This document shows, one piece after another, positions 12,601-63,307 of a stretch of 64,000 bases of DNA. The number at the start of each line of letters is the position of its first letter. The stretch's first letter is position 1. Source of the stretch: Leucocoprinus leucothites. Its lineage: Eukaryota; Basidiomycota; Agaricomycetes; Agaricales; Agaricaceae. The notes below the pieces were generated by a model. The model was not told the DNA's origin and ran no database searches. It worked only from the letters and a program-made list of their open reading frames with translations. A program made the translations under genes and the position numbers. The stretch lies in the NCBI GenBank assembly GCA_013368445.1, contig JAACJO010000008.1, forward strand, positions 124,001 through 188,000, in the 5' to 3' direction.

Positions 12601-12662
12601 CACCCCCTTGATCTGACAAGTCCACAAGTTGTTGGAAACACCAAAATCGACACCTATACTCT

Positions 12663-25700: not shown

Positions 25701-26668
25701 TATTAGTTGTTACTGATATCTCTGTTCCCCTTGTAGGTTCTCTTTAGGTGGTTTTGGCAGCACATTTATATCACAGTGGACAACAAGTGTCCCATGCAAA
25801 GCAGGCAAGCAGTTGGGCATCTTCCACAGATGCTGAACTATACTCCATTCGCATTGGCATCGCCAAGGCCATTTCCCTCCAGTGCAATCACATCATCCTC
25901 ATCACCGATTGTCTTCCAGCAGCCAAGCTGGTGGTCAATCCCTCCATCCACTCAAGCCAATCACACTCTATCCAAGTATGCTGACTTTTATCTGACTGGC
26001 TTGCAGCCAAACCTTCTTGCTCCATCAACTTCTGGGACATCCCTTCCAAGTGGCACTGGAAGCCCCACCTCAAAGTCCACAATGACATTACTACCACACA
26101 CATACATGCCCCTCCTCATATGGGTGCCACTCTTGACTTCTTGTGATGCAAAGCCACCAATGACTGCCAGAAATCCTGGGAGTCCACTTTCTAGAAGAAG
26201 AAGTACCGTGGCAACAGTTTCCTTCTCTCAAAAAAGAACCGCAAGTTCCTTATCCTTACTTATGTCAAAGGAGGTACCTGGATTCCCCTAGCCAATGAGT
26301 CCACATCATTATGTGCATGCGTAACTCATGCTATTCTCAATCATGCTCCTATTGGAGCTTATTGTGAGAGGTTCTTCCCCCTCAAGCCCAAGTCCTGTCG
26401 TTGTGGCCATCGCCTGGAAACAAGACATCATATCCTGTGTTACTGTCCCCTCTATCCCATTTGCACTCAATGGGTACAATGCACCTTCCCTCAGTACAAG
26501 TTCCTCATCAAGTTCTTGAAAAAGAACCTGGCTACTTTTGCCTTTACCAATCATGACATGCATCCACTGCTGCCTCAAGCTCCTGTGCCCACCAAACCAA
26601 ATGAAGGTGAACTATATTCTTTCATTTCATCTCTTCTCTTTTCCTTTGAGTCTGATCTCTGTGTATGA
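22715..26668 (+). pseudogene. LINE ORF2: endonuclease, RT, RNase H, Cys/His end
   Basis: A single frame of about 1317 codons is broken by roughly 17 stops, mostly TGA. The order is: AP-like endonuclease (SSVHIYSQN, GGNFNC, SDHAPL), RT (SSAPGPNH near 24070; FVDDG at 24761-24772), RNase H (acidic VVTD near 25700, STDAELYSI near 25830, ITDCLPAAK near 25905), then a Cys/His motif (CRCGHRLETRHHILCYC, near 26395-26445). Presence of RNase H and the ORF1 zinc knuckles suits the Tad1 clade of fungal LINEs. When intact, such a protein would nick the target and prime reverse transcription there. Confidence 0.88.
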
Positions 26669-26877
26669 CACCTTGTTCAATAGTCTCTCTCGAGTCTTTT
26701 TCTATGTTGCTGGACTAATCATGTATAGTCTTTGTCTTAAGCAGTCTTCAACCACTTTGTGTACCCCAGCTTGCTGTAGCGTACCATCTGTTTGTAATAT
26801 TTAGTTGAAAGCGGACTGCGATCAAGCACCGCTATATAAATTCATTGATTTTTTTTAAAAAAAAAAAAAAAAAAAAA
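26669..26877 (+). other. LINE 3' UTR, tail core and poly(A)
   Basis: The region carries the tail core gcggactgcgatcaagcacc near 26813 and atataaattcattgatttt just before poly(A) (26857-26877). The same core, with small changes, ends every half-LINE in the window, which is the expected basis for RT recruitment in trans. Confidence 0.75.
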
Positions 26878-27816
26878 AGCTCCCCCTCCACTCCTATCGC
26901 TTCCCCCACTTCCCCAGCCTCTTCCCCACCCCTCCAGCTTGATGCTGACTTCAATTGGATTGCAGACACAGGTGCTACGTCACATATGACCCCACACTGT
27001 CATTGGTTCAAGAAATATACCCCCTGTCGCATACCAATCAGATTAGCAGACAACTCTGTCATATATTCAGCTGGGATGGGTTCAGTGGTCTTTCAGCCTG
27101 CTATGGGCGGAAAAATGGCTGGAGCGGTCGAGTTTTTGCGTGTACTGCATGTTCCGGACCTCCGGAGTAATCTCCTGTCTTGTCTATACCTCACACGAAA
27201 TAAGGGGTTCAATATATCGATTTCTTCGCACTCTATGGCCTTTAGACTCAAGGGAGAGACTCTCTTCACTGCCTCCATTGATTCCACCAACTCTGCTGTC
27301 CTCAATGGCACTACCATCGCTTCTGAGACCGCTTTTAGCATCTCCACACTTCCTGCTGACCTCTCACTCTGGCACTGTTGCTTTGCACACCATAATTATG
27401 CTGATGTGAAGAAGATGATACAGCAGGAACTGGTTACTGGGCTTAAAATCGACTCCTCAGCTCAGCCTGACGCAGTTTGCAAGCCCTGCCTTGCTGGAAA
27501 GATGCACACCCTTCCTTTCCTGCCCTCAGCCAACCACAATCACTCCCCACTCGAGTTGGTGCACTCAGACCTCCATGGACCGCTCCCAGTGCCTACCCAC
27601 CGTGGCTACAAGTACTGGATGATGTTTATTGATGATTCTACGTGTTTTCGAGCTGTCTACCTGCTTAGGGCCAAGTCAGAAGCCTTTGAAGCATTCAAGG
27701 AGTACAAGGCTTGGGCAGAGAACCAGCTAGGAGCGAAAATTCGTGCTCTACAGGATGATAAAGGTGGTGAATACATGTCCAACGCATTTTTGCAGTTTAC
27801 CAAGGACTGTGGCATT
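26878..27816 (+). pseudogene. Copia-2 protease and integrase N-terminal half
   Basis: This resumes copia-2 after the LINE. It has the aspartic protease DTGATSHM motif, a GAG-pre-integrase zinc region (H..H...CKPCLAGK) and the start of the DDE core (LVHSDLHGPL; LQDDKGGEYMS). The third catalytic residue, the RT and the RNase H are missing because the sequence switches to Ty3-M at about 27816. The frame stays open across the switch to 28086, so a chimeric protein could in principle be made. Confidence 0.86.
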
Positions 27817-29427
27817 ATTTATGAGACCATTTGCGAAGCTGCCAAACACAACTTAGCGAAAAGGACAGAATGGAGTAAGGACAATAAGTGTCTGGATCCA
27901 GTTAAGGTCTTTCTTGAAGTCACAACTAACTTGGAAAGAAAGGGCAATGAGGAAGAGACATTCACAAATGAAGATGAAGACAACAAACTAGAAGATGATG
28001 TAGTCACTTATGAGAATAGGTGCTCAGAGCATGCACTCAGGCTTGATAATTGTCTCAACAAGATAAGGGACTACTTAGCGAATTAGCCAGAAAAAGGTGA
28101 CCTGACTTCAATGACTAGTGAAGAAGCTAAGTTCATGAGGGCAGTATCACATTTCTGGTTAGATGAATCTGATGGTAAACTCTATAGAAAAACTGGTAGC
28201 CATCAGTATCCACAATTAGTGATACCAATAGAACACAGAATGAAATTGTTGAAGGCGTGTCACGATGACATGGGACACAGGGGAGCTTTCGCTACTGCTC
28301 GATTACGGCAACAAAGGTTTTGGTGGCTGGAGGTAGAAGAGGACACTACTTGGTATGTCAAGTCATGCCACCTTTGCCAAGTATACCAAAAGATGGCTCT
28401 CGAAATGCCACCTGTAGTAATACACACACCTTCAATATTTCAAGTACTACATGCAGACACAGTACACATGACTCTGCTGTCGAACAGATGTAGCTATATC
28501 GTACATGGCAGATGTGCACTCTCAAGTTGGATGGAGGCACAGGCACTCAGACAAGAAAATGCTAAGACTATTGGTCAATGGCTTTTCGAGGATATAATAT
28601 GCAGGTGGGGAAGTCTAGTCAAAATTGTAACAGACAATGGTTCCCCTTTCAAGAAAGCAGTCGGATGGCTCACGGAAAAATATGGAATTAAAGGAGTCAC
28701 AATTTCTCCTTACAATTCACAAGCCAATGGCACTATAGAAAGACCACATTGGGACCTTAGGCAAATGTTATCTAAAGCAACTGGTGGTGAAGTAAAGAAA
28801 TGGTATTGGTCACTACACCATATAATGTGGGCTGATAGGATCACTATTAGAAAAGGGACCAGATGTTCACCTTTACTTTATGGTAACAGGTGCCCATCTG
28901 ACTTTGCCATTAGATGTTATTGAAGCAACATGGTTAGTCAAATATCCTGATAGGAGGTCTCTACTACAGACCTAATAGGACTTAGAGTCCAAGTGCTTGT
29001 GAAGCATATTTCACATGTAGAAGAAATGTGTTCATGAATGAACAAGGAAAAGATAAGGAGGGCTTTACAGCTCAAAAGTGAATTTAAGCATAAAATTAAA
29101 GAATTCAACCTAGTACCTGGTAGTTTGGTACTAGTGAAGAACTCTGCAATAGAAAGCTCTGCCTATAGAAAAATGAAGCCTTGCTATCTAGGACCCATGG
29201 TGGTTATTAAGAAACTAAAAGGGGGTGCATTCATATTAGCAGAACTGGATGGGTCAGTATGGCAAAATAAGGTCATGGCATTTAGAGTCATACCTTACCT
29301 CATGAGGAGGCACATCAAGTTTAGCAAAAAATTCAAAGACTTGCTTGACACCTCTCACAAAGTTCTGAAACTATTAGAAGACACAGAAGTAGAAGCCATC
29401 AAATTGGATAATGAAAGTGATACTTGA
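27817..29427 (+). pseudogene. Ty3-M pol (copy a): integrase and C-terminus
   Basis: An acidic linker (NEEETFTNEDEDNK) is followed by the integrase zinc domain (CHDDMGHRG... CHLCQVYQK) and DDE core (HADTVHM; VTDNGSPF; NGTIERPHWDLRQ), then a beta-rich C-terminal domain (SLVLVKNSA; YLGPMVVIKKLKGGAFILAEL). A TAG at 28084-28086, a frameshift at about 28880 and a TGA near 29035 break it. Copy b has a stop at the position of the first one as well. The tail ends with TGA at 29425-29427, 143 bp from the end of gene B. Confidence 0.85.
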
Positions 29428-29570
29428 TCAACTTCGCATTTGCGAAAGGTTGGGAGTCAGAGGTATTAGATTTCAAAAGAACTACACAGAGCTAAGTGTA
29501 ATGAAAACTGTATCTAAAGGACCATTCATAACAATAGCTGACAACTAAGGAAATGAAAGACTACAATAGG

Positions 29571-30882
29571 TTAAGCACAGTTTGCAACATTGTAAATATT
29601 AGTGAGATGATCATGCTCAGCCATAGCAACTTGATACTGCCAAGTAGCACTCTTGAGAGAAGCAATGGAATGCAACACTTGAGAGGTTGAGTTAGCTAAA
29701 CCCATCTGAATGATGTCATGAGAGCAAGTCTGCAGAATAGAAGTTTGTAACTTGATGGCCTGAGTTGCAAAACCACTCATAGTGTTGAAAAGAGAGTTAG
29801 CTAATGCAAGAGTATTAGCTCACAAAAAGAAAAACAAGATTAGCAGAGAACGTACCTTGGCCAACAAGGACTTGGATAGGATGGATCTCATTGACAGGGC
29901 CAGGAGTAGTGAGCTGCATGACACAAGCATAAGCCTTGCTGTGAATATTTAGGCTAGGGACAAAGGTATAGGGAATATGCACAGTCTGGGCACAATTGAC
30001 TACTTGAGCTTCCTACAAAGGAGAGATCAGATACAGAACAAGCTTTCATGAAAGGGATAACTCACGGGTACTGAAGGTACATAATGGACAATTTCCTTGT
30101 CAACCTGCATAGGGCTCTTGAGAGTAGTAAGAAGCCATTCACAAAATGAAATAAGAAGAAGAGGCTCACCAGCTGAGTAGTGGGTTGGGGGGTGATACTA
30201 CAAAGAATGTTACCAGCAGCACTGCAGTGGTTGGTAATTTCCACTTCATCATCCTCTTCATCTATGGAAAAGTGCACATATTCCAGGGAGATTGGCTTGG
30301 TATGTCGATGCTGCCAGTGAACCTATAATTCAGTTCAGTTTTCAAGAAAGCACATTAGCAAAAGACAAGACCCACCTTCTTGGGAGGCACCTCAGTGGCA
30401 GCAGCACCAGACTCAGCAACTGCACTGGCTCCACCAGGGGGAGGGTCTTGACTAGAGTTGCTAGTAGAGCTTGCAGTATCACTAGCTTTGGTATTGACCT
30501 TATCAAGTTGATTAAGGAACTGCCTCAGCTGACCATAAATGGGAGGAAAGCCATAAGTGGGATTGACATCTTGTTTGAACTTGTCATAAGTGCACTTAGC
30601 CTTTTTGACAACACAAGCAGAATCATCATTCACAAAGGCAGAAGCATTGGTTTTGAGACAGTTCAAGAAAGATTCCTTTAAATAATAGACATCAGTGATA
30701 ATGAATAAGTAAGGTTTGTGGAAACAAACTATGGGTTCAGCAAGGCTGTCAATGGCTGTTTTTACTGATCCCTTAGTAGTCTGGTTGGACACAAAGCATT
30801 GACAACAATGAAAGACATTCAAAATTGCATCTGTCAACTCAATGTAAGTGTTTTTGGTTTTGCCAGTAAACTCGGAAGACAT
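29571..30882 (-). CDS. Ty3-M antisense gene B (copy a), five exons, intact
   Basis: The exons on the minus strand are 30882-30376, 30295-30170, 30104-30066, 30012-29856 and 29800-29571, 1059 nt in total, encoding 352 residues. All introns are GT-AG, 53-80 nt long, and join frames exactly. The same splice sites occur in copy b. The protein starts MSSEFTGKTKNTYIEL; it has a mixed helical N-terminal part with several Cys, a Pro/Gly/Ala-rich linker (about residues 145-168) and a C-terminal region (FATQAIKLQTSILQTCSH) likely to form helices. I recognise no domain. The frame is open although the neighbouring pol is broken. Function unknown. Confidence 0.72.
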
Positions 30883-30961
30883 GTTGGAGCAAGAGAGTTG
30901 AGCAGACTGTGTCTCAAAGCTGAGGTGTTGAGAATGAGAGAAAGTGCAATGAAAAAGAAGA

Positions 30962-30969
30962 CTTTTATA
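30962..30969 (-). promoter_or_regulatory. TATA box of gene B (copy a)
   Basis: TATAAAAG lies on the minus strand about 80 bp upstream of the gene B ATG. The same box at the same distance is found in copy b (53649-53656). The stretch from here to gene A (30970-31716) holds no other gene that I can support. Confidence 0.65.
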
Positions 30970-31716
30970 TCCAAGCCCACCTCTGCCGATAGGGAATAAA
31001 AATGTTCATGAAGGCATCCACTTGGACTCCAAGCAGATTTTAGCAATAATGCTAATGAGTGCAGTTGGGTGGAAAATCCAGCAGTCATAAAAATTGTGGC
31101 TAGGAAGGGCACAGTCAGAGTGGATGGTACCCACATTGCTGAAAGCAGTGAAATTTAGGACTGTTTGTGAATACAATGGAGCATATGCCAACTCTAGATG
31201 AATTTCAAATAAAATTTTAAGGGTTGCACAGATATTGATTAAGGCAAGGTTTGCCAGATTTAGTATCCCCAAGGGGTTCTTTCACTACAATAGTTTCATG
31301 AGGACACAATCTATTATAGTAAGGGGGAGAGGGCAGAGAGCTAGAAATAACCCATAGTACTATATCACGAATTCTTTGATTTATGGCTAAGTCACTAAGT
31401 CACACAACAGATCAGAATCGCACTAATAGATCAGAGGTGATGTCATTATGATAAGTCCAGACCAAGGAAGAGAAATCTCTCAAATAAGGCTTCACTAGAT
31501 TTCTTAGTTTAGAAGTTACACAGGGAAACCAGCCAAAAATGCACAAGTGGATTAGAATGCAAAGAGACTATCTAGCAACATAACAAGAGATTGGATATAT
31601 AACATGAGGAGCAATGTTGACTAGATAAAAGAGTAAAACAATAAGAAAAGCAAATACAGAGTTCAAGAAAGCAATAGCAAGCAACTTATCAAGTCTAGAA
31701 ACAGGAAGACAGCCGC

Positions 31717-34244
31717 CTATTCTTTGCAACACTTGCCTTTAGCCCTAGTCTTACCCCCAGACTTGGTAGTGGGGATAGGAGATGAATTATGAGATGGGCC
31801 AGCAACAATCAGAGTGTGATGGTCAGCCCAAGTTAGGGGGCGCAGAAGTGGAAGAGAACAGCCTTCTTTGCCAATTTGATTGTAAAGGGAACAAATGAAG
31901 GTATTGTGAGCACTGAGCAGATTGCTTGCAGTATCATGAGGAGAAAGACCCTCAGGAGCAGAAACAGCCTGGCAAGCAGCAGCAAAGATGGCAGCATGGG
32001 TAGCCTTATCAGGAACTAACTTGCTACCAATCCAGTAATTTGGGTTGGGAGAAAAGTATTCCTTGGTGGTGAGAAGCTCATCTGTGAACTCAGAAACCTG
32101 AGCTTGATAACTTGTGAGTGCCAACTTGTAGCTATGGTGACCAGCCTCAACCAAGTCCCAACCCACAGCCAGGACACAAAGACAAGAAATAATATCTGGA
32201 AAAGTAATCAGATACAATGCAATAAGGAAAGATAGATAAAGAACAAAGAACTTACAAGAATTGCTAGTAAGAGTTGCTGGGTGAAGTTGCTTAGCCCAAA
32301 AATTCCATAGTTCTGCAGGCTTTTGATGAGTGCAGTGGGCTGACTTCTTGTCCTTGCACTGCATGCAAGGTAATATGCCATTGAGGAGTTGGAAGGACTT
32401 GGCATGCATGGCAGTTTTAGAGGTATGGGGCTGGGGGTCAGAAGCAATGCATTTGTCCAAGCACTTGGTAATGCAATGCAAGCATTTAAGCTCGCCTGCA
32501 GGACCCTAGAATAAAAATAAAAATAATTAGGAAAGCATAAAATGAGTATTCAAGAACAAAACCATACCAAGTTGGATAATGAAGAAGGGGCAAAAAATTG
32601 AGGGCAGACTCCCAAGAAAGGGTGTCCTGCCTCCATTCCAAACTCCCTAATCAAGTTACAACCTGTAGTAGAGAATAACGAATAATCAGTGAAAGGCCAG
32701 ATAAAATAAGTAAAGGAACTTACATAAAGAGGAAGCAGAAGGATCTGCTTGAGCACCAGAACCACTAGCCTGTACTGAAACAGGAGCGATTCCTGGGCAA
32801 CAGGGGGTTGATGGTGGTAGAGCAAGAGGGCAAGTAGGGAGCTCAATGGAGTCCATCACCAACTGCTGATGAGAGCTCGATACATTGGACTCAATGTTCT
32901 CTCATGAAGACTTGGTAGCAGGAGTACCAATAGATGGAGAACCAGCCAACCATTTCGAGGGGCCAGGTTGAGGGCCCAAAGCTCTAGGATGCTGGAGACC
33001 ATCCTCGATCTCATTGTCATCTGTGAACTCCATATGTGGAGGGTTACTTAGTCCTGGAGGGAAGACACAGACAGCAACAAATTAGAAAGTCACCAAAGAA
33101 TAATAAAATACATACCAGAACTAGTCCTGGGCTTGGGACAAGCCTTGGATCTTGTGTTTACTAATGGAATTGTTGGAGAAGATGTAGACAACAAAGACAG
33201 ATCAGGGAGATACTTGGCTATTAAATTGTCAGTGCCAATTGCAGGTGCAGGAGAAGGGAGACCTGATATTAAGAAATAAAATGAATAATTTGGAAAGGAA
33301 ATAGTCATATACTCACTAGAGGAAATATCAGCAATAGGGTGAGTTGGTTTCCATGCAGCTATGAGAGGAGAGGAAGCCTGCAGAGGGGCTGGAGATGGCA
33401 GGTTCAATACTCTGGCAGAACCACCACAAGGAGGAGGCCATGGACACTCATCAGTGGTAATAGCTGCAGGGGCAGACAGCTTCTCTAGAGGATGAGTACA
33501 CTGACCTTGGATGGGTTCCTCATTGATATAAGCATCCCAACACTTACGAGGCTAGATCTGTGAAAGCATGATCAAAATGCAGGACTCTAGCAGGCCTAAG
33601 TAGCTAAACTCACCTGTTGCAGCCAAGGAGGGCAGTGAAAAATAGAGTTTTTTCTGGGTTTGGGAATGAATAAATAAGGACGGGGTGGGATACAAATGGT
33701 CAATTGAGGGTGCACCAGACTAGGAGATGAAGGATGGTCAGGCTGCAAAAGTGGTTCATTGTTGGATGGACTGACTAAGTCGATTAGGGACTCAGGAGCT
33801 TGAGAAGGAGCAGGAGAGAACAGCGGAGGAATTGGAGAGGCCAGCAAAGTCTCATCATTGTGGTTGACTGTCTGCACTGGGACAGGAGGAGGAACTTGGG
33901 GAGTGAGGGCCATAACTGGGGTGATTTGATGCACTTGAGCATTGGCATCCCGAAATTGTTGTAACAGAGTGGCACAGTTGTCTTCGAGCAACTGAAGTTG
34001 TGCCACACAAATGGGATGGTGGGCTTGGCTGGAAAGTGTAGCATGTTGTCATTTGATGTCCTAAAGGGCAAGCACCAGATGGTTGAGCTCCAAGAAATGG
34101 AAGGCATACTCAGCAGCTGACAGGTTGGCAAGCAAACTGTCAGGAGCTGAGGATGTGGCTGGCAAAAGGAATAAGTCCAGCAAAATGTGAAAAACAGGAT
34201 AGGAACTCACATTGAGCAGGGGTAGGAGGCTGTGCAGGCACCAT
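31717..34244 (-). pseudogene. Ty3-M antisense gene A (copy a), eight exons, three nonsense codons
   Basis: The exons are 34244-34211, 34158-33614, 33542-33317, 33262-33116, 33053-32724, 32662-32568, 32505-32256 and 32195-31717: 2106 nt, 701 residues, with GT-AG introns of 52-71 nt apart from one reading of the intron after exon 6. Residues 1-455 are rich in Pro and Ser. A Cys module follows at about 467-519 (C-x2-C-x3-C-x3-C, then C-x2-C-x7-C), which suggests zinc binding, then a conserved globular region and a Lys-rich end. In-frame TAG and TGA in exon 2 and TGA in exon 5 break it. Exons 6-8 recur with the same borders in copy b. I do not recognise the family. Confidence 0.65.
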
Positions 34245-34907
34245 TAAGTCAGGAAGGGCAGAGACAAGAAGAAAAGAGCCAAGTCCCAAACACTGAGACT
34301 TTAAATAGGCTGTCTGAAAATAAACTTAGAAAGAAGTCAGTTGATTGCATGATGACACACAATCAGACCAAATAAACAACAACAGGAACTGGATTTATCC
34401 AGTTTACAAGCACTTAGGCAGACCATACAAAGTAACAGAGACTGCCTTGAGCATTTGGCAGATTCTGCCATGAGTTCGAAAATCCATGGTAGGGGAGAAA
34501 GGCATCCATAGGTGTCAACAGGTCTAATGATTGATCAGATCTGATCACAGATTGACAGCAGACCTTTGCAATCATTCTAAAAATAAAAGCCACATGCCCA
34601 ATTGTGAGCTGACCTTTAGTCTCAATCAATCACAGAGCTTGAATTAAGCATGGGATGTTCCAGAACATTCTAGAATGAGTTTGAAGGAAGGATGGACCAG
34701 TTCCCAGATAACTTGGAGCTGATTTCAACTATAATCAGGATGGCTTCTGCAGATGCAGACATAGGCCTGCAGTCTTTGTGAACGAAGGATAAAAATGCCA
34801 TAGTAATGAAAATGAAGATGACTTAATCACACAGAAGCCATTTGTTAGCAAAAGGACATAAGATTTGACCTCCTAAGTCCCCAACAAGTAGAGACTGAGG
34901 GCAGTCA

Positions 34908-34925
34908 TTTATAGTGAGGGGGAGA
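34908..34925. promoter_or_regulatory. Polypurine tract of Ty3-M and overlapping antisense TATA-like box
   Basis: On the plus strand, agggggaga (34917-34925) immediately precedes the LTR, as a plus-strand primer should. On the minus strand, TATAAA lies at 34913-34908, facing gene A. The interval 34245-34907 would be the gene A leader; I see no ORF of note there. Use of the box as a promoter is an inference. Confidence 0.55.
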
Positions 34926-36302
34926 TGTTACAGCCCAAATGGCATTAGCTATGAAATCGTTAAATTTGATGATATAGTCAATATATTGGGCGACTGTATA
35001 GACATTAAGGAACCCTACTGTAAGACCCTAGTGTAACACACACACTCACAAAAGCACAGCACATTTGTGAAATGACCATTAATGATTAAGAGTAACAAGA
35101 GGCTACAGGATGATATCAAGACTTAGCAAATGCAGTTGGGATGTGTACCCTATGACCCTTTGTGATCTTAGCCTATAACCTGGGTATTGATCCAGTCAAA
35201 GTCTTTCTCAAAGGAACAATGACAGACTAACTAATTGGAGATCAAAGGCTTAGCCTTCTGATCCAGACAGGCACTTGTACACATTCATGGAAGTCCTATC
35301 TTTTTAACATTGCTACAGCAGAAGTATACCCTTTTGCGAAAGACAGAGAAATTCTGCATGGGCACTGAATGACCCACTTGATTATAGAACCAGATTAGTG
35401 GAAACTAACAGGATGTGTCAGCACTTGACTACTGACTAGTAGACATTGTTATAGTCAGGAATGGGCTTTCATGGAATAAGACAACCATCAGCAGTGATAG
35501 AGATCTCATGATATCAGAGGAGCAGGAGTAAGCATGCCTTCACAAAAGGATGTGTCAGCACTTAAACCCAAAAGAAAACCCAGAGATACTCCTATTGGAC
35601 AACCTTTCAATAAATCTCCTTTTAGTATCAAGTATGTGTATGCGTCATCCATGTAATTACTCCTTTAGTACTTTCATGAAACCAATATAAACCTTTTTCA
35701 AGTGTATAGTCTAGCAAGGAATCTCACCTGCTAAGGCTATGCTTAGAGACTGTCCCACACAACATATCTGAGTGAGTAGTAAAAAGTGTATTGAGCACCC
35801 TTCAGTCATAGACCATTAAAGAATTGGAAAACACCTTTTGAGAAAGAACATTATTGTGAGATTCATATAAGTTTAGAGTGTGAAGAAGTCTGGAAAAGAC
35901 TTATAAGCTGTATATTGCATCTAGTATCCAGGAGTGGTGCTAGTCAGTATCAGTTGTATTGTGATAGTGCCAAGTGTTAGTGAAAGTGACAATTCACAAA
36001 TACCAGTCTATTACACTTCTGCATTCTAAGGGACTTGTAGCTGTGCAGCATTGCATAACAGGGATCATCAAGTATCTTTCATGAACTGGTCATTCCATTA
36101 CAAACTGGTCTACAGACAACTCCCATTATCTATCATTATCAATCTTTGTACTTTTGCAAAACATCTTTCTTTATTGATTAACCTCCCACAAACTTGGATT
36201 GAGTTTAGGAGTGTTGGTTGTTATTGTTATTAAAGTTACTTATCATTCACTATCTGACTACATTCCCTTTATTACCTTAACAATCTCATTTCTGCCTCTT
36301 CA
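34926..36302 (+). repeat. Ty3-M 3' LTR (copy a), 1377 bp
   Basis: It starts TGTTACAGCCC and ends CTCTTCA. The full sequence recurs as a solo LTR at 42379-43757, the last part (reversed) at 49508-50169 and the first part (reversed) at 62890-63303. Sequence differences between the copies are mostly C/T or G/A. The 300 bases to the right (36303-36601) hold nothing I can identify. Confidence 0.88.
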
Positions 36303-36601
36303 TTGGCTATGTATTTTCATTACCTGTTTTATGATACCAGCTCACTCATTTTCTTTTGGACTTAGACAATTTTTCGTACTTTCTTACTTACTGTTTTGTT
36401 TTCACTTATACCCAATAGCCTCATCTCCTTCTCATCCTTTTTCTTACTTCAGATTTCTCCTTACTCACACCTTGTTCCAAGAAAATACCATTCAAATTTC
36501 AATGAAGTCCCAAAAAGTACGAGATATACATTAGGCAATAAATAGACAGAAATGACAACAAACACATGAGCTGATTGGAAGGATAGGAGGAAATGACCTA
36601 C

Positions 36602-37080
36602 TGTCATGACTCGACCCACTCGCATAGCCTGGCTGGCATGTACTCCATCTTATCTTCATATTTCTAACTTATGACTTCTATCATACTCTCCTTCCACTTC
36701 TGTCAACTTGCCTCGGTTCGCTTCCACTCGACTCACTCCACTCTTCTTTCTTACCCTGTATCTTCTTGTGTGTTGTATTTGGACTTTCACATGTCATGTC
36801 ATTCATAGTCTCCTCTGATGTTTCAGACATTCTTATCTTCTAGCCTTTCTGATATGTCAGATGCCATTCTTATTCCTTTATCCTTTTTCTGCAGTGTCTT
36901 TGTTATTTGTTATCCAACTCTATCCACCATATCGTATATAAATAGCTGAACTTGTACCATATTCCTCAGTCTGAATCAACTAAGTCACATGTTACTACTC
37001 TGTCTGACCTCTGCTCTCTCTTCGCCCTCCTATCTCCATCTGTTTCCTAAATCCAGGTCAGCATCAGTAGTGGCACAACA
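36602..37080 (+). repeat. Possible solo LTR of another family
   Basis: The segment starts TGTCATGACTCG, ends GGCACAACA, contains TATATAAATA at 36935-36944, and is preceded by a purine-rich stretch (ggaaggataggaggaaatga). These are LTR-like traits. No second copy is in the window and the flanking 5 bases do not match, so it may instead be the 3' neighbourhood of the minus-strand gene at 37210. Confidence 0.35.
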
Positions 37081-37209
37081 CATAAGTTGAGGCCAAGACC
37101 CACTCCCATGTGCAATGACTGGATCAGTCATCTCTGCTCCTCTGTCTTAGACATCCAGTCCTGGACATCAGCTCTGTCCCCCATCCTTTAGTAACCTAGT
37201 TCTTGACAC

Positions 37210-37473
37210 CTACTTACTACCATTCTCATCCTCATCCTCTCCCTCACCTTCCTCCTCTCTGGCCTCCCCCTCATCCCCAGACCCAGCATCTAATGTCTCT
37301 GGTATGGCCTTCTTCTTAGTGGCCAACTTGGCATCCAACTCCACCCATGCCTTCTCATGTGCCTCATTATCCATCACCTTGTCATCAAGGACAAGCCAGT
37401 CATAGAACTCCTTGAAGTCCTTGGCCAGCCTGTCCACAACTTTGGTCTGGGCCTGGATACTTGACACCAATAC
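37210..37473 (-). pseudogene. 3' half of a gene disrupted by Ty3-C
   Basis: The minus strand encodes VSSIQAQTKVVDRLAKDF... ending in a strongly acidic tail (GDEGEAREEEGEGEDEDE) and a stop at 37210-37212. With Ty3-C and one target copy removed, this frame joins in phase to the segment at 63395-63571. The protein would have an N-terminal Cys-containing part, a heptad-like helical middle and an acidic C-terminus. The family is not recognised. It could be a cellular gene, or another retroelement-borne gene like gene A. Confidence 0.6.
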
Positions 37474-37716
37474 TGTTATGTATATTGATTATATCTAGCA
37501 TTTGTTCCATCTACAATACGAAGTCAATATTAGCTTTACTTAAGTAATATCACAATTATGTTTTTATCCTATTGTTCTTGTATTTTCTAGTTTGTTTTGA
37601 CTCATTTACTTTGCCTCATTATGACCTATTATGACTTGTTTGGTTTTATTTATCTTTTGATGACATGTGATTATTAAATATAGCTGTGCTATATTTGGAC
37701 TTACCTTGTGATTGAT
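37474..37716 (+). repeat. Extra partial copy of the Ty3-C LTR (243 bp)
   Basis: The first 243 bases of the LTR (TGTTATGTATATTG to gtgattgat) are repeated directly in front of the complete 5' LTR at 37717. The element therefore begins with a tandem partial duplication of U3. Confidence 0.85.
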
Positions 37717-40709: not shown

Positions 40710-42301
40710 CAGTGGCTCAAAAAACTGTCCCAATGTTTTCGCATTTTGGACATATTTGCCAATACCAGGGCAGATATATGGCCTAGCATCCTGAAAATAT
40801 TCACACAGGTACCTTGACATATTGGGCACATATATTCCCATGATCACATGACCTTGTCCATCAATGAATTATTAATGAATTATCGAAAATATCTAATCAT
40901 TGGGACAGTTTTTTGACCCCCTGTCAGCCTCCCAGTATCTACCTTGTAACATGCCAGGAGAGCATCAGGGCAGGCATGGCAGTAATAAACAAGATCATGT
41001 GACCTTGGTTGACATGTTGAGATGGTTACAACTGTCTTTCTTCCTGCCACTACATCATGAAAGCTATCTCCTCTATCCAATACTCGCAAGTCACTTCTCT
41101 TCTCAAAGATGGCTATTCCTTGTGCCAGATTGAACATAAAACTGGTCGAGGCAAGTCTACTGTTGGGAGGATCAAGAAAGAAGTTGATGGGGACAAGGAA
41201 AACAACAAGGGAGGACATCCTTCCAAGCTTTCTCCTCATGATAAAAAAGCAATAATTTACCAAATAACCTCTGGAAAGCTAGACAATGCTGTCCAGGCTA
41301 CAACTTTCATTAAATCTACTCTGTCTGACCCTGTCACACCCCAAACTGTCAGAAATACCCTTCAGGATAATGGATTTTGCTCTGTAACCAAGATCAAATG
41401 ACCTCTACTCAAAGGCAACATTGTGAGGAACACCTTGACTTTGCATATGAACATAGGAATTGGACAGTGGAGGACTGGAAGAGGGTGTTATGGACAGATG
41501 AAACAAAGATCAACAGGATTGGGTCAGATGGAAAGGTGTATACCTGGAAGGGGAGGGGGGAACTACTGTCAGATAGGACCACTCTCCCTACTGTCAAACA
41601 TGGAGGAGGTGGTAACATGATGGTGTAGGGGTGTATGGGGTGGAATGGGGTGGGAAAGCTGATAGAGGTTCAAGGGAATATGGATGCAGTGCAATACTGC
41701 GAGATTTTGGACAATGGGGTGGTCAAAAGCTTTGAAAAGTTGGAGATAGAGGAGGAGGAGAGGATATTCCAGCAGGATAATGACCCAAAACACACCTCAA
41801 AACTGGGACAACAATGGTTTGTGGACAACAACATTCAAGTTCTATCATGGCCTGCACAATCCCCTGACCTAAATCCCATTGAACACCTCTGGACCTACCT
41901 GAAGGACCAGCTGAAGGCATATGAAAGACCACCCAAGGGAGTATTTGAATTGTGGGAGAGGCTAGTAGAGGAGTGGAATAAGATTCCAGCAGAAAGGTGC
42001 CAAAGGCTGATAGAAAGCATGCCCAGAAGGATTGAGGCAGTTATCAGGGCAAGAGGAGGTCATACAAAGTATTGAGTAGGTAGATAACAGAGGGTCAAAA
42101 AACTGTCCCAATGAGTAGATATTTTCGATAATTCATTAATAATTCATTGATGGACAAGGTCATGTGATCATGGGAATATATGTGCCCAATATGTCAAGGT
42201 ACCTGTGTGAATATTTTCAGGATGCTAGGCCATATATCTGCCCTGGCATTAGCAAATATGTCCAAAATGCGAAAACATTGGGACAGTTTTTTGAGCCACT
42301 G
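40710..42301 (+). mobile_element. Tc1-A: Tc1/mariner transposon in Ty3-C gag
   Basis: This 1592-bp element is flanked by TA (40708-40709 and 42302-42303). The terminal inverted repeats are about 210 bp (40710-40920 and 42092-42301) and begin CAGTGGCTCAAAAAACTGTC. Each repeat also ends, on its inner side, with the same motif inverted (cattgggacagttttttga). It carries a degenerate transposase. Confidence 0.92.
41057..42075 (+). pseudogene. Tc1-A transposase, broken
   Basis: It is homologous over its whole length to the intact transposase of Tc1-B. It is inactivated by a TGA at 41399-41401 (Gln in Tc1-B), a one-base frameshift near 41415 and a TAG near 41625 (Trp in Tc1-B). The DDE residues are still encoded (WTDET, QQDNDPKH, DLNPIEH). 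Confidence 0.9.
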
Positions 42302-42378
42302 TATATATGAACTTGGTGCAGAGGATGATGATAATCCTGAAGAAGAGGAGAGTGAAGGAGAAGATATCAACCAAATGT

Positions 42379-50169: not shown

Positions 50170-50171
50170 TA

Positions 50172-51764
50172 CAGTGGCTCAAAAAACTGTCCCAATGTTT
50201 TCGCATTTTGGACATATTTGCTAATACCAGGGCAGATATATGGCCTAGCATCCTGAAAATATTCACACAGGTACTTTGACATATTGGGCGCATATATTCC
50301 CATGATCACATGACCTTGTCCATCAATGAATTAATAATTAATTATCGAAAATATCTACTCATTGGGACAGTTTTTTGACCCTCTGTTATCTACCTACTCA
50401 ATACTTTGTATGACCTCCTCTTGCCCTGATAACTGCCTCAATCCTTCTGGGCATGCTTTCTATCAGCCTTTGGCACCTTTCTGCCGGAATCTTATTCCAC
50501 TCCTCTACTAGCCTCTCCCACAATTCAAATACTCCCTTGGGTGGTCTTTCATATGCCTTCAGCTGGTCCTTCAGGTAGGTCCAGAGGTGTTCAATGGGAT
50601 TTAGGTCAGGGGATTGTGCAGGCCATGGTAGAACTTGAATGTTGTTGTCCACAAACCATTGTTGTCCCAGTTTTGAGGTGTGTTTTGGGTCATTATCCTG
50701 CTGGAATATCCTCTCCTCCTCCTCCATCTCCAACTTTTCAAAGCTTTCCACCACCCCATTGTCCAAAATCTCGCAGTATTGCACTGCATCCATATTCCCT
50801 TGAACCTCTATCAGCTTTCCTACCCCATTCCACCCCATACACCCCCACACCATCATGTTACCACCTCCTCCATGTTTGACAGTAGGGAGAGTGGTCCTAT
50901 CTGACAGTGGTTCCCCCCTCTCCTTCCAGGTATACACCTTTCCATCTGACCCAATCCTGTTGATCTTTGTTTCATCTGTCCACAACACCCTCTTCCAGTC
51001 CTCCACTGTCCAATTCCTATGTTCATGTGCAAAGTCAAGGCGTTCCTCACGATGTCGCTTTTTGAGTAGAGGTTGTTTGATCTTGGTTACAGAGCGAAAT
51101 CCATTATCCTGAAGGGTATTTCTGACAGTTTGGGGTGTGACAGGGTCAGACAGAGTAGAGTTAATGAAAGTTGTAGCCTGGACAGCATTGTCTAGCTTTC
51201 CAGAGGTTATTTGGTGAATTATTGCTTTTTTATCACAAGGAGAAAGCTTGGAAGGACGTCCTCCCTTGTTGTTTTCCTTGTCCCCATCAACTTCTTTCTT
51301 GATCCTCCCAACAGTAGACTTTCCTAGACCAGTTTTATGTTCAATCTGGCACAAGGAATAGCCATCTTTGAGAAGAGAAGTGACTTGGGAGTATTGGGTA
51401 GAGGAGATAGCTTTCATGATGTAGTGGCAGGAAGAAAGACAGTTGTAGCCATCTCAACATGTCAACCAAGGTCACATGATCTTGTTTATTACTCCCACGC
51501 CTGCCCTGATGCTCCCCTGGCATGTTACAAGGTAGATACTGGGAGGCTGACAGGGGGTCAAAAAACTGTCCCAATGAGTAGATATTTTCGATAATTAATT
51601 ATTAATTCATTGATGGACAAGGTCATGTGATCATGGGAATATATGCGCCCAATATGTCAAGGTACCTGTGTGAATATTTTCAGGATGCTAGGCCATATAT
51701 CTGCCCTGGTATTAGCAAATATGTCCAAAATGCGAAAACATTGGGACAGTTTTTTGAGCCACTG
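50172..51764 (-). mobile_element. Tc1-B: Tc1/mariner transposon with intact transposase
   Basis: This 1593-bp element has about 210-bp inverted repeats and TA on both sides (50170-50171, 51765-51766). Its left flank belongs to the Ty3-M LTR and its right flank to an intron of gene A, sites 3 kb apart in copy a. It therefore sits at a deletion junction. Confidence 0.92.
50398..51417 (-). CDS. Tc1-family transposase, intact (339 aa)
   Basis: This is a cut-and-paste transposase. Residues 1-110 form the paired helix-turn-helix DNA-binding region with a GGRPSK basic motif at 52-57. The catalytic core has D148 (WTDET), D241 (QQDND) and E276 (NPIEH), with 34 residues between the last two, i.e. DD34E as in Tc1. 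The length is normal for the family. The ends are well kept, and the two sibling copies A and C are both broken, so this is the only candidate source of transposase here. It would act on the terminal repeats of all three copies. Confidence 0.93.
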   Translation of the reverse strand: MKAISSTQYSQVTSLLKDGYSLCQIEHKTGLGKSTVGRIKKEVDGDKENNKGGRPSKLSPCDKKAIIHQITSGKLDNAVQATTFINSTLSDPVTPQTVRNTLQDNGFRSVTKIKQPLLKKRHREERLDFAHEHRNWTVEDWKRVLWTDETKINRIGSDGKVYTWKERGEPLSDRTTLPTVKHGGGGNMMVWGCMGWNGVGKLIEVQGNMDAVQYCEILDNGVVESFEKLEMEEEERIFQQDNDPKHTSKLGQQWFVDNNIQVLPWPAQSPDLNPIEHLWTYLKDQLKAYERPPKGVFELWERLVEEWNKIPAERCQRLIESMPRRIEAVIRARGGHTKY

Positions 51765-51814
51765 TACTCCTTTCATCTGGCCTTTCACTGATTATTGGTT
51801 ATTCTCTACTACAG

Positions 51815-52757
51815 GTCATAACTTGATTAGGGAGTTTGGAATGGAGGCAGGACACCCTTTCTTGGGAGTCTGCCCTCACTTTTTTGCTCCTTCTTCATTG
51901 ACCAACTTAGTAGTTTTCTCTCCTCTTTCTTTTAGGGCTGTCACTGACCCTTCTTCTGCTTTTTAGGGTCCTGCTGGCAAACTTAAATGTCTATACTACA
52001 TTACCAAGTGCCTAGACAAGTGTGTCGCTTCTGACCCTCAACTCCGTACTTCTAAGACTGCCACGCATGCTAAATCCTTCCAACTCCTTGATGGCATGTT
52101 ACCCTGTGTGCAGTACAAGGACAAGAAATCAGCGCATTGTACTCATCAGAAGCCTGCTGAGCTATGGAACTTCTGGGCTGAACAACTTCGCCTGGCCACT
52201 CTTACCAGCAACTCCTGTAAGTCCTTACATTCCTTATCTATTTTTACTTTTTCATGTCGTATCTGATTACTTTCCTAGATCTTATATCTCATCTTTGTGC
52301 CCTGGCTGTTGGTTGGGACTTAGTGGAAGCTGGCCAGCACAGTTACAAGTTGGCACTCGCAAGCTATCAAGCACAGGTATCGGAATTTGCAGATGAACTC
52401 CTCGTCATGGAGGAGTACTTTTCTCCCAACCCCAATTACTGGGTTGATAGCAAGTTAGTTTCCGATGAGGCTACCCATGCCGCCATCTTCACTGCTACTC
52501 GTCAGGCCATTTCTGCTCCAGGGGGCCTTTCTCCTCATGATACTGCGAGCAATCTGCTCAGTGCTCACAATACCTTCATCCATTCCCTTCATGATCAGAT
52601 CGGTGAAGAAGGCTGTTCTCTTCCCCTTCCATGCCCCTTAACTTGGGCTGATCATCATACCCCAGTTGCTGCTGGTTTGTCTCGCAATTTGTCTCCTGTC
52701 CCCACTACCAAGTCTAGGGGTAAGACCCATGCTAAAGGTAAGACTTGTGGCAACTAG
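51815..52757 (+). pseudogene. Ty3-M antisense gene A (copy b), exons 6-8 only
   Basis: The exons are 51815-51909, 51967-52216 and 52279-52757, with the same borders and lengths (95, 250, 479) as in copy a. Exons 1-5 were deleted together with part of the LTR. Two Cys of the putative zinc module are now Tyr (TAC for TGC), consistent with G-to-A decay. The end is intact to the stop. The interval 52758-53648 has no gene I can support. Confidence 0.72.
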
Positions 52758-53648
52758 ATTAACTATTTTTCTATCATTTCTTGGGGATCTTCTCTCTAGT
52801 GGAGGTACTCTAGCTAGCCATCCCTTTGTGCAAATTCATCCTCCTCCCTAGACTATTTCTTCCTTCTTTTTAGTCACTGGCCCTTCCTTTCTAGCTAGCT
52901 TCTTCAGTTCCTGTTATATGTCCATTCTTCTTGTTGTACTTGCTAGCTAGGATTCCTTGTACTTTTGTGTGATTGTGATCATTCTAGTGTCTTGCTCCCT
53001 TGTTTTTGGTGTGAACCCTCCTTAAGTCAAGATTCCAACCACTTCTCTTCTCCGAGTTTGCTGTTTTCTATTCTGGGTGACCCTTCTGAGTAACTTTGGT
53101 TAAGTAATCAACTTTGGTTAATATTTGACACATTATATCTACCTCTTTTGATGTGCTGTTATCTCCAAACATTGATCTTCTAGTGTGATTCTGATCCGTT
53201 GTGTGATTTAGTGGCTTTTTCCACAGAACCAGCTTAGGACAATTGTGCAGAAACCTGCATTTACTCTGTTTACCAGCCCTCTCCCCCCCACTATAATAGA
53301 TCATGTCCTCACAAGACCATCATAGTGGCAGAAGTCCTTAGTGATACCAAATTAGGCAGTTTTTGCCTTAATCAATATCTGCTCATCCCTTAAAAATCCG
53401 TTTGAAATTTGCCTGGAGCCAGTCTATGCTCCATCACATTCACGAATGGTCCTACTTTTCACTGCTCTTCTGCAATGTGGGTACCATCCACTCTGACACT
53501 GTCCTTCTGACTGCAATTTTTATAAGTGCTGGATTTTCCACCCCACTGCACCTCTGCATGCCTTAGCATTATTGCTGGAATCTGCTCAGAGTCCAAGTAG
53601 ATGCCTTCATGAACATTTTCATTCCCTATTGGCAGAGGTGGGCTTGGA

Positions 53649-53735: not shown

Positions 53736-55046
53736 ATGTCTTCCGGGTTTACTGGCAAAACCAAAAATGCTTACATTGAGTTGACAGATGCAATTTCAAA
53801 TGTCTTTCATCATTGTCAACACTTTGCGTCCAACCAGACTACTAAGGGATCAGTCAAAACAGCCATTGACAGCCTTGCCAAACCCACGGTTTGTTTCTGC
53901 AAATGTTACTTATTCATTATCACTGATGTCTATTATTTAAAGGAATCTTTCTTGAACTGCCTCAAAACTGACACCACTGCCTTCATGAACGATGATTCTG
54001 TTCATGTTGTCAAAAAGGCTAAGTGCGCTTATGACAAGTTCAAACAAGATGTTGATCCCACTTATGGTTTTCCTCCCATTTATGGTCAGCTGCAGCAGTT
54101 CCTTAATCAACTTGATAAGATCAATGCCAAAGCTAGCAATACTGCCAGCTCTACCAGCAACTCTAGCCAAGACCCTCCCCCTGGTGGAGCCGGTGCAGTT
54201 GCTGAGTCTGGTACTGCCACCACTAAGGCACCTCCCAAAAAGGTGGGTTTTGTCCTTTGCTAATGTGCCTTCTCGAAAACTGAACTGAATCATGGGTTCA
54301 CTGGCAGCATCAATGCACTAAGCCAATCTCCCTGGAATATGTAAACTCTTCCACAGACAAAGAGGACAACGAAGTGGAAATTACCAACCACTGCCATGCT
54401 GCTGGTAATGTTCTTCATAGTGTCACTCCTCAACCTACTACTCAGCTGGTGAGTCTCTTCTTTTCATTTTGTTTCACAAATGGCTTCTTACTATCCTAAA
54501 GGGCCCTATGCAGGTTGATGAGGAAATTGTTCATTATGCACCTGCTGTACCTGTGAGTTATCCTTTCTGCGAAAGCTTGTTCTCTATCTGATCTCTTCTT
54601 TGTAGGAAGCTCAAGTAGTCAATCATGCTCAGACTGTGCGTATTCTCTATGCTTTTGTCCCTGGCCTAAATATTCACAGCAGGGCTTATGCTTGTGTCAT
54701 GCAGCTCACTACTCCTGGCCCTGCCAATGAGATCCATCCTACCCAAGCCCTTGTTGGCCAAGGTATGTTCTCTGCTAATCTTGTTTTTCTTTCATGAACT
54801 AATATTCCTGCATTAGCTAACTCTCTTTTTGACACTATGAATGGTTTTGCGACTCAAGCCATCAAGTTACAAACTTCTATTCTGCAGACTTGCTCTCATG
54901 AAGTCATTCAGATGGGTTTAGCTAACTCAACCTCTCAAGTGTTGCATTCTATTGCCTCTCTCAAGAGTGCTACTTGGCAATATCAAGTTGCTATGGCTGA
55001 GCACGATCGTCTCACTAACATTTACAATGTTGCGAACCATGCTTAA
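53736..55046 (+). CDS. Ty3-M antisense gene B (copy b), five exons, intact
   Basis: The exons are 53736-54242, 54323-54448, 54514-54552, 54606-54762 and 54817-55046 (507, 126, 39, 157 and 230 nt), giving 352 residues, the same as in copy a. All four introns are GT-AG (80, 65, 53 and 54 nt); three are in phase 0 and the last in phase 1. The protein starts MSSGFTGKTKNAYIEL. Differences from copy a are spread along the protein without any stop or indel. It lies tail-to-tail with pol, 143 bp away. No known domain is recognised. Confidence 0.75.
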
Positions 55047-60800: not shown

Positions 60801-62889
60801 AATCCCTCCATTGGCACTCTGCATATTAATGCTTAGTGCAGGATCCCAAGTAATCTTAGCTGCAGCAGCAGTCTTTTTATCCATAGAGATAATTTGTGAC
60901 CCACTGTCAAGAAGTGCCTCTTCCTTGCAAACTCCGTTTATTAAGGTTGGTACTACTCTTAGTGAGGCCAGACTGCCTGCTACTTCCTCGAAACCCTCTG
61001 ACAAGTTCGAGAAAACCTGACAATCTCTCTCTTCTGGCACTAAGGTTTCGAGATACTACAAGATAGGATCTGCAATAGTCCATGCCTCTATTTGCTTTCC
61101 ATCTTCGTCTAGTACCTCGCCTTGTACCTTAGTAGGTATTTCTAATGAATTAACTTCTACTATTGTGGGGACTATTTCATTTGAGGTTTCTACTTTATCA
61201 AACGCCCCTTTATCCTTGTCACTTGATTCCTCCACTAATACTCATTTCGCAGAAATGTTCTCCTTAGCAGCTGCCCTTATCTTAGGTGACACTGCCATGA
61301 GTTCTCGTGAAGTGAGTTTAATTTTGCTTTCCATAATTCTTTCCGCTATTTTTTGCAGATCTACACTGTCCTCTACCAGAGCCTTGTACTTGTAGCCTGG
61401 CGCTTTTGTAGGATATTGTCACATATAACATGCTGGCATAGGGGGAACTTCAACCACTGGCACCATAGAGGGTACCTTTCTATAAGGGAGCTCAGGCAAT
61501 TTGGTGGTCGAAGTTTGATTATCACCCTGAGTCCCTTTTTCTTTTTCTAATTCATTTTCTGATTCTTCTGAGTTCTTCACTTTATTGTCCTCAGAAACCT
61601 TTTGCCTTCGGAATCAAACCTTTTTCTCAATGGCAGGCTTCTTCCTCGGACCTTCTAGAAACCTGACTTCTTAGTCGAGCTTTCTCCTTTTCTTGTCTGG
61701 GTAAATGACTTAGCTAGCTTTGCTAGCAAGACTTCTATTTCTTCTTCTGACTCAGATGATGAGTCCTCAATACCCACTTTCTGTAACAGTGCCTCTAGTT
61801 TAGATAATTTATTCTTTAATTGATCTACTTTGTGAGAGGACTTGTTTGCAAAGGTTTGTGGTCTCGACTGAATTATCATCTGAGAGTTTACAGCTGCTAC
61901 ATAACCAGTGTCTGGTACTCTATCGAAGAAGTCATGAAAGTCTTCGTCGTATTCTTGCAGAGCCACCATGGCTATGGTAGCTGGTAAATATTTCTTGATG
62001 CAATCTCTAATTGAAACATTGGCTTCACTCGGTATAGCTTCTCCATTCACGAAATGAACTGAGAATCCTTCAACCAAAATTAAGCCTTTCTTCTCATCTT
62101 CTGCTTTCACAGGACACATCATGAACAAATGGCCAATATCAAAACAGTAATAACACTTTCGAGTCATTTGCAGAGGTGCTACATTTTCGCAACTCTGCTG
62201 ATACCTGACTGATGAGTTAGATGACTGTGATGTATTGTTCTGCATCATAGTCTTCAAACTATCTAGTGCACTCTGCACCGACCGTTCATGCTTTTCACGT
62301 CCTTTCTCTTGTTTCTCGTACATAGTTTTTAATACATTGATTTCTTGTTGTAATGAATCTATGTCTGGGGGCAAAGGCAAAGTCACTTTTCATGTAGCTT
62401 CTTCTTTCATGAACACTATAGGTGCTCACAACTCAACATCTGCCTTTTCCCTTTTTATTATGCTAGTTGGGGTATACTTCATTGCTCGCACAATAGTCTT
62501 TCCACTAACTAGTTCTACTGCTTTATTGATCACTTCCTCTAAAGTGTAAGGATCCTCCTGTCTGCTTTTTCCTGTCACATCGACCTTGACCGTTCCTTGT
62601 ATACTTAGTCATGCATTTAAGGAATCCTGGAAGGTTGTGTCTAATGTTCAGACAAACATTTCAACAAGTTCACGATTCCCAGTTACAGCTGGTGGTTCTA
62701 AACACTTTTGTGCAATATAGAGAAAGCATCTCTTAAAACTAAGTAGTTGGTCTTCATCTACTAAACTAATGCCTTGATTGCTTTGGCATAGCTTATGAAG
62801 CTGGTTCATAGAACCTTGCTCCTCTTTGACCATTTCAGGATACTCTTTCTTGAGTCTTTTCACGAAGGCAGCCCAATCATTATCTTTGT

Positions 62890-63303
62890 TCACAAAAGGG
62901 TATACTTCTGCTGTAGTGATGTTAAAAAGATAGGACTTCTGCGAATGTGCACAAGTGCCTGTCCGGATCAGAAGGCTAAGCCTTTGATCTCCAATTAGTT
63001 AGTCCATTATTGCTCTTTTGAGAAAGACTTCGACCAGATCAATACCCAGGTTACAGGCTAAGATCACAAAGGGTCATAGGGTACACATCCCAACCATGTT
63101 CGCTAAGTCTCAACATCATCCCGTAGCCTCTTGTTACTCTTGATCATTAATGGTCATTTCACAAGTGTGCTGTGCTTTCGCGAGTGTGTGTGTTACACTA
63201 GGGTCTTACAGCAGGGTTCCTTAATGTCTATACAGTCACCCAATATATTGACTATATCATCAAATTTAACAATTTCACAGCTAATGCCGTTTGGGCCATA
63301 ACA
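62890..63303 (-). repeat. Ty3-M 5' LTR fragment (copy b)
   Basis: It starts TGTTATGGCCC (minus strand, 63303) and follows the first ~410 bp of the LTR as far as atacccttttgtgaa, then passes straight into gag coding sequence. The remaining ~965 bp of LTR, the primer site and the gag start are deleted. Confidence 0.85.
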
Positions 63304-63307
63304 TTGC

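Follow-up and report, generated by a model that had tools for sequence, protein, structure and literature searches.

The window analysed here is a stretch of 64,000 nucleotides from Leucocoprinus leucothites (contig JAACJO010000008.1, C8:124001-188000), and the genome searched comprised 47.0 Mb in 110 contigs. It holds two copies of a Ty3/gypsy long terminal repeat (LTR) retrotransposon, copy 1 (cp1) and copy 2 (cp2), in which two predicted multi-exon genes, termed A and B, lie antisense between pol and the 3' LTR. Comparison of the copies suggests, with a probability of roughly 0.78, that the usual gene content of this family includes A and B in this position and orientation. An initial annotation had given both genes to both copies, with matching exon borders, GT-AG introns and in-phase joins. 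In copy 1 the two antisense genes were recovered at these borders, with 11/11 introns of the GT-AG type and all joins in phase, but gene B is interrupted by four stops; in copy 2 gene A is complete, but gene B is limited to exons 6-8, the rest being absent where an insertion of 1.6 kb starts (Table 1).

Gene A has five exons and approximately 360 codons, and its four introns are kept in all eight copies in which it was modelled (cp1-cp8), which fits the earlier proposal that antisense genes keep their introns through retrotransposition. The first model of intron 1 used an ATAG acceptor, which is present in 2/8 copies (cp1 and cp3); a TGGCAG acceptor 12 nt downstream, also in frame, is present in 8/8 and is more likely, from this distribution, to be the true one. 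Gene B has eight exons and 664-706 codons, and introns in the modelled copies measure 48-86 nt. The exon lengths of gene B are 34, 545, 241, 147, 330, 95, 250 and 479 nt in cp1 and 34, 464, 247, 147, 279, 95, 250 and 479 nt in cp8, so that they differ by 0, 81, 6, 0, 51, 0, 0 and 0 nt, all multiples of three. Its exon 7 encodes a cysteine/histidine cluster, C-x2-C-x7-C-x-H, in both of the element families described below, for which zinc binding is a guess from the residue pattern, and the protein has a lysine-rich tail. In copy 1 the TATA-like sequences GATATAAAAG and CTATTTAAAG lie upstream of the ATG of A and of B, respectively, and TATA-like boxes were seen by eye upstream of both ATGs in families 1 and 2.

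The element, family 1, is approximately 15.1 kb long. Its most complete copy, cp8 (15,120 bases; contig C5, loci L042 and L043), has two LTRs of ~1.38 kb each that are 96.0% alike. A stretch resembling a primer binding site and starting with TGG directly follows the 5' LTR in 4/4 copies inspected, and a polypurine tract (PPT) abuts the 3' LTR, which is the arrangement of a Ty3/gypsy element. Open stretches of cp8 matched RT_RNaseH and Integrase_H2C2 above the Pfam cut-off and Ty3_capsid below it, and cp4 (C33, L034) matched Asp_protease_2 above the cut-off. The reverse transcriptase (RT) frame of cp4 had no Pfam match, but RT chains of solved structure from retroviruses and Ty3 were matched (best E 1.7e-09; Ty3 RT E 1e-04). 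Pooled from cp8 and cp4, both of which have broken frames, the order of domains is Gag, protease, RT, RNase H and integrase. Copy 1 consists of the 3' part only, its 5' truncation at ~27816 falling 3' of the RNase H region; it therefore lacks gag, protease, RT and RNase H, and the full anatomy was taken from other copies. Its pol remnant shows 86-95% DNA identity per 500-base step to the full-length copy, cp8, which served as its reference and in which the integrase zinc domain was matched. Copy 2 lies on the minus strand and is broken by nested insertions. The family LTR has 127 candidate places genome-wide, 40 of them scored, against ~10 loci with integrase, so many of these places are probably solo LTRs.

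The cargo region of copy 1, comprising genes A and B, matches 23 places genome-wide, and nine copies (cp1-cp9) were compared, the sequence around each having been retrieved. The two copies in the window and their counterparts on C33 were dropped as separate insertions: window 27816-37712 equals C33:35806-25902 at 97.5% (cp1/cp3) and window 51762-56250 equals C33:21976-17474 at 95.2% (cp2/cp4), each pair being one insertion within segmental duplicates. The nine copies compared thus amount to seven independent insertions. Gene A was modelled in eight of the nine and gene B found in eight (in copy 2 as the remnant mentioned); in cp9 (C3:920k) pol remains and gene A is split, and no match to gene B was found there. 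Ten family-1 loci have a match of at least 93% to the 3' end of pol, and gene A is present at nine of them; at the tenth, C9:416950, the pol match ends at base 490 of 801, short of the cargo site. A chance insertion, betrayed by a clean empty site in other family members, had been named as the observation that would speak against the cargo, and none was encountered among the loci examined. Genome-wide, A has 29 matches and B 17, all near pol or LTR relatives of families 1 or 2. The sole A/B match without its own pol, at C3:776-778k, adjoins the 3' LTR of cp6 and has the polypurine tract; its gene B fragment spans C3:776977-777913. No copies of A or B were found away from such elements in this genome at the sensitivity used. 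Beyond it, alignments of exons A4 and A3 gave 49 and 239 pattern matches in viral contigs, of which 0 were confirmed as relatives, and the integrase end had one short match among genome contigs, which lay in a bacterial bin, covered residues 31-62 of the query and was not used.

A second pol family carries the same pair. Its integrase end is 73-74% alike in DNA at C24, C35, C102 and C7 and 71% at C3:318404; the pol protein pieces of C24 are 70%, 50%, 74% and 77% identical and the middle piece of C102 46%. Antisense matches to A were found at C24, C35, C102, C7 and C3:323k, and to B at C24, C35, C7 and C3:324k. By coordinates, the order of A and B is that of family 1 at all four loci with both genes (C24, C35, C7 and C3:318-325k), and the sequence itself was read for C24 and for parts of C35 and C102. 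These copies are also broken in places, and ~9 kb separate A and B on C35. Between the families the amino-acid identity of gene A is 24-42% in pieces, 32% in exon 5 and 23-25% in part of exon 1, and that of gene B exon 8 is 23-27%, while at the DNA level the two genes align only in A, over stretches of 43-80 bases at three loci. The presence of both genes in the second family, in the same order and on the same strand, together with the selection on the antisense frames described below, bears out the view that the pair is not chance cargo. Loci C19:401297 and C47:114678 hold a related pol family in which one frame is open over 1279 codons.

Within family 1, the region of gene B occurs in two types. 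Over the LTR, pol and A, copies cp1, cp2, cp3, cp4 and cp5 are 82-96% identical to cp8 where aligned, whereas at element positions 10001-13500 the same comparison gives 65-80% or too little aligned sequence, and 85-95% thereafter; cp6 and cp7 are 85-97% identical to cp8 wherever aligned. The right border of the divergent region is sharp and in cp8 is placed ~290 bases upstream of the start of B, and the left border is gradual, running from the promoter side of A past an internal polypurine tract. Synonymous divergence of B between types is ~2.5 in three pairs and saturated in three; that of A between independent copies is 0.17-0.33. Because the B region is so much more divergent than the backbone of 82-96%, it has probably been exchanged between elements as a cassette.

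Selection on the antisense frames was assessed from the ratio of nonsynonymous (dN) to synonymous (dS) divergence, omega. As CpG decay shifts omega, a neutral null was built from LTR substitutions by trinucleotide context, with 400 simulations per comparison, and run on 11 chosen comparisons from 25 omega pairs and sub-stretches. CpG has an observed/expected ratio of 0.35 across the window and of 0.10 at 29571-34244, and CpG-type transitions account for 197/294 differences (cp8/cp6) and 151/187 (cp8/cp7) in the aligned B region. An omega of 1 was discarded as the neutral expectation, since the LTR substitution pattern gives a null of 0.56-0.63, and raw omegas therefore exaggerate selection. 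For exons 7-8 of gene B, omega was 0.11 for cp1-cp8 (between B types; null mean 0.58) and 0.15 for cp1-cp4 (two lineages; null mean 0.61), and 0/400 simulations were as low in either case. Differences between cp1 and cp8 in the 243 codons of these exons number 57, 42 and 120 at codon positions 1, 2 and 3. Over the whole of B, cp1-cp8 gave dN 0.36, dS 2.5 and a raw omega of 0.14; three of the six between-type pairs had an omega of 0.14-0.15, and saturation left the other three without a value. Pairs within one B type are consistent with pure decay, cp8-cp6 giving 0.52 against a null of 0.60 for exons 7-8 (150/400) and 0.64 against 0.63 for full B (241/400). Four gene A pairs, against a null of 0.56-0.57, gave 0.38 for cp1-cp5 (8/400), 0.28 for cp5-cp4, 0.25 for cp5-cp2 and 0.30 for cp5-cp6 (0/400 for each of the last three), and the duplicates of one insertion, cp4-cp2, gave 0.86, with 358/400 simulations as low or lower, as in pure decay. 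In ten pairs, exon indels are absent or 3 nt long with three exceptions (1 nt in A of cp8, 1 nt in B of cp3 and the 5' truncation of cp7), and intron indels are mostly not multiples of three. These codon comparisons indicate that, before insertion, strong purifying selection acted on gene B and that the signal for gene A is weaker.

Between A and B lies a second polypurine tract, which in copy 1 reads TATAGTAAGGGGGAGA. Searching the genome with the 3' tract of copy 1, TATAGTGAGGGGGAGA, at no more than one mismatch gave 20 hits, against 1 for the reversed control. Ten are located between A and B, in all of cp1-cp8 (8/8) and in family 2 at C24:47979 and C7:1780522; six are at 3' ends (C8:158910, which is window 34910, C28:45135, C33:28699, C33:24166, C24:51170 and C7:1777548, the last two placed by likeness); one is in the C3:776k fragment, and three, at C9:1512726, C10:1379252 and C14:65214, were unplaced. 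The 3' tract of cp8 has one extra G and falls outside the 20 hits. The internal tract retains 15-16 of its 16 bases in 8/8 copies and 15/16 at the two family-2 loci, and in 60-column steps beside it the two B types (cp8 versus the other type) are 42-85% alike. Such a conserved second copy of the PPT, held in place in cp1-cp8 and at C24 and C7, makes it probable that the internal tract is a central polypurine tract.

Table 1. Features of the two element copies, in window coordinates.
Feature	Position	Strand	Remarks
Integrase end of pol, copy 1	27816..29427	+	88% overall DNA identity to the full-length copy
Gene A, copy 1	29571..30882	-	5 exons, no internal stop; stop codon ends at 29571
Gene A exons, copy 1	30882-30376, 30310-30170, 30104-30066, 30012-29856, 29800-29571	-	intron 1 acceptor is the one common to 8/8 copies
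Internal polypurine tract, copy 1	31315..31330	+	between A and B
Gene B, copy 1	31717..34244	-	8 exons, four in-frame stops; ATG at 34244
Gene B exons 1-4, copy 1	34244-34211, 34158-33614, 33557-33317, 33262-33116	-	
Gene B exons 5-8, copy 1	33053-32724, 32662-32568, 32505-32256, 32195-31717	-	
3' polypurine tract, copy 1	34910..34925 (C8:158910-158925)	+	abuts 3' LTR
3' LTR, copy 1	34926..36303	+	92% to 5' LTR of L042; genome-wide LTR search
Gene B remnant, copy 2	51762..52757	+	exons 6-8 only; stops in matches, some maybe intronic
Internal polypurine tract, copy 2	53280..53295 (C8:177280-177295)	-	one mismatch
Gene A, copy 2	53736..55046	+	antisense to copy 2 pol; complete, no internal stop
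5' LTR piece, copy 2	62889..63304	-	

Several observations weigh against A and B being regular, coding constituents of the element. None of the seven near-complete copies of gene B is free of stops: cp1 and cp6 have four each, cp3 five (after a partial 1-nt shift), cp4 three, cp8 one, cp5 38 (with an insertion in exon 7) and cp7 three (with the 5' part missing), and several B splice sites are lost in some copies. Gene A lacks a premature stop in five of the eight modelled copies (cp1-cp5); a single one occurs in cp6, the frame is shifted as well as interrupted by stops in cp7 and cp8, and donors are lost in intron 3 of cp3 and in introns 3 and 4 of cp5. With B intact in 0/7 and A stop-free in 5/8, the two genes may no longer be working in this genome. 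All four clear gene A pairs involve cp5, and cp1-cp4 and cp4-cp6, both 0.43 (34/400 and 25/400), are weakly below neutral; as cp2 and cp4 are moreover one insertion, the support for selection on A is real but narrower than that for B. Gene A had nothing above the Pfam cut-off, TRP28 included, and the same was true of B exons 6-8 and of pieces of exons 2, 3, 4, 5 and 8. Weak Pfam hits in the search with A and B exons 6-8 (COG4_N, E 0.45; EII-GUT, E 0.074) and with B exon pieces (DUF6902, E 0.26; PirA-like, E 0.35) were rejected as below the cut-off. B exons 7-8 had no match among sequences of solved structures. For A exon 1 and B exon 8 the AlphaFold models (mean pLDDT 45.3 and 55.0, respectively) were too poor for use, and Foldseek gave 0 matches at E <= 0.001 for the latter. 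No A or B match was found at five more distant pol loci, termed family 3 (C19:401297, C47:114678, C3:716566, C45:84212 and C34:46691), nor at the pol fragments on C20.

A mechanism can be proposed for how such genes would persist. Because the introns of A and B are readable only in antisense RNA, whereas the genomic RNA is of the opposite strand, they would survive copying: RNA started in the 5' LTR would hold them as reverse complement, unseen by the spliceosome, and they would pass through reverse transcription. After integration, A and B would each be transcribed from an internal TATA-type promoter of their own and then spliced. The internal tract would prime a second plus strand, aiding the copying of an unusually long genome, and the B region would be swapped between element lineages, for example by template switching. 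The swapping may occur because B gives each lineage a function of its own, for instance against host silencing; a role of the A and B proteins in regulating the element or in opposing silencing by the host is the least supported step. Taken together, an ancient, selected antisense module of two genes with eleven introns, split by a central PPT and with B swapped as a cassette between lineages, is put forward tentatively, at somewhat less than even odds.

The part assigned to the internal tract has a competitor, in which the tract is a relic of an older 3' end, left where an A-only element was later joined to a B-carrying one. Its close resemblance to the 3' PPT and the location of the divergent B region between the two tracts would fit this history, but a relic should have decayed, and the conservation of the tract amid diverged flanks makes such an origin unlikely. 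More doubtful still is a cellular origin, in which one element recently acquired A and B through transduction and spread them as passengers. Their many introns, their own TATA-like promoters and the lack of a Pfam match to known retroelement proteins are what captured genes might show; however, copies away from such elements were not found in this genome at the sensitivity used, and the pair is common to two pol families at ~23-42% identity, so that a capture, if any, was ancient.

Antisense transcripts might instead act as RNA, regulating the sense genome by pairing with it, and the open frames would then be incidental. Regulation of this kind is discussed as one possibility for plant antisense open reading frames (ORFs) in passages of PMC7264820, and transcripts of A and B could pair with the genomic RNA, to which both genes are complementary. 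Selection on codons nevertheless argues against it, with omega in B exons 7-8 at 0.11-0.15 where 0.58-0.61 is expected, as do the preservation of frame by exon indels and the amino-acid similarity to family 2, which persists where the DNA of A and B is mostly unalignable, and a role as RNA alone therefore appears very improbable.

The surroundings of the two copies are rich in other repeats. A unit of 1.6 kb with inverted terminal repeats of 241 nt has three copies in the window (40708-42303, 50170-51766 and 56248-57843), two of them in or beside element copy 2, and a fourth at C33:14905-16501, inside cp4. Its frame of 351 codons at 50398-51453 matches DDE_3 and HTH_Tnp_Tc3_2, domains by which the unit is classed as a Tc1/mariner-type transposon. 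Window 27816-37712 and 51762-62888 are segmental duplicates of C33:10273-35806, mostly at 91-98%, with different later insertions. A non-LTR retrotransposon at ~21840-26900, with its poly-A end at ~26860-26880, and a Ty1/copia-like integrase stretch at 26900-27815, which adjoins the truncated copy 1, were both named by eye. A large inverted repeat occupies 7322-10785, with arms of 1640 nt that are 91% complementary and 184 nt apart.

Antisense genes in retroelements have precedents, and the closest in a fungus is brtn, reportedly described by Zhao et al. in 2011. In passages of PMC7264820, PMC8365987 and PMC4227169, brtn is an additional antisense gene of the gypsy-type Boty-like elements of Botrytis cinerea, and the first of these includes it among elements whose antisense ORFs follow pol and precede the 3' LTR. 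The family described here is likewise a fungal gypsy-type element with antisense gene cargo; unlike Boty, for which one antisense gene is named, it has two. A chromodomain is named for the Boty-like element in a passage of PMC4227169, whereas the pol pieces searched here matched none. A single antisense gene in a fungal gypsy element is thus already on record, and in the literature searched only the form with two genes and many introns appears to be new.

In plants, antisense ORFs (aORFs) comprise gene23 of Grande and those of RIRE2 and of Retand, the latter of TRP28 type; for the Grande gene its own promoter and antisense transcription are reported, and the plant aORFs are described as ancient (passages of PMC7264820 and PMC11963269). 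The present family resembles these elements (aORF-3R sensu Vicient and Casacuberta 2020) in that A is present at 9/10 family-1 loci and is selected. It differs in having four introns in A and seven in B, introns not being named for plant aORFs in the main text of PMC11963269, and in its exchangeable cassette and internal polypurine tract, neither of which is named in the relevant passages of PMC7264820 and PMC11963269.

Among retroviruses, the HBZ transcript of human T-cell leukemia virus type 1 (HTLV-1) is spliced. HBZ is antisense and nuclear according to a passage of PMC11963269, and its promoter lies in the 3' LTR according to one of PMC7264820. A and B are similarly antisense, near the 3' end of a retroelement and spliced in the gene models, with no homology claimed; unlike HBZ they have internal TATA-like boxes.

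Lentiviruses and Ty1 have a central polypurine tract, a second copy of the PPT located in pol. The family described here likewise has a second copy inside the element, with priming predicted, but between two antisense genes rather than in pol. No retrotransposon with two multi-exon antisense genes was found in the literature searched, in which subscription journals were thinly covered. The two-gene, many-intron antisense form looks undescribed, antisense accessory genes as such being already known in plants and Botrytis.

Retrotransposons normally cannot retain introns, since they are copied through RNA. Placement on the opposite strand solves the loss of introns, and here it appears to be used for two selected genes with four and seven introns. 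If this is true, the family would represent a retroelement that escapes intron loss by its choice of strand and evolves by the exchange of modules. It would provide a test case for the roles of antisense accessory genes, for central polypurine tracts in fungi and for the recombination of accessory modules, and the function of the plant antisense ORFs may become approachable through a fungus.

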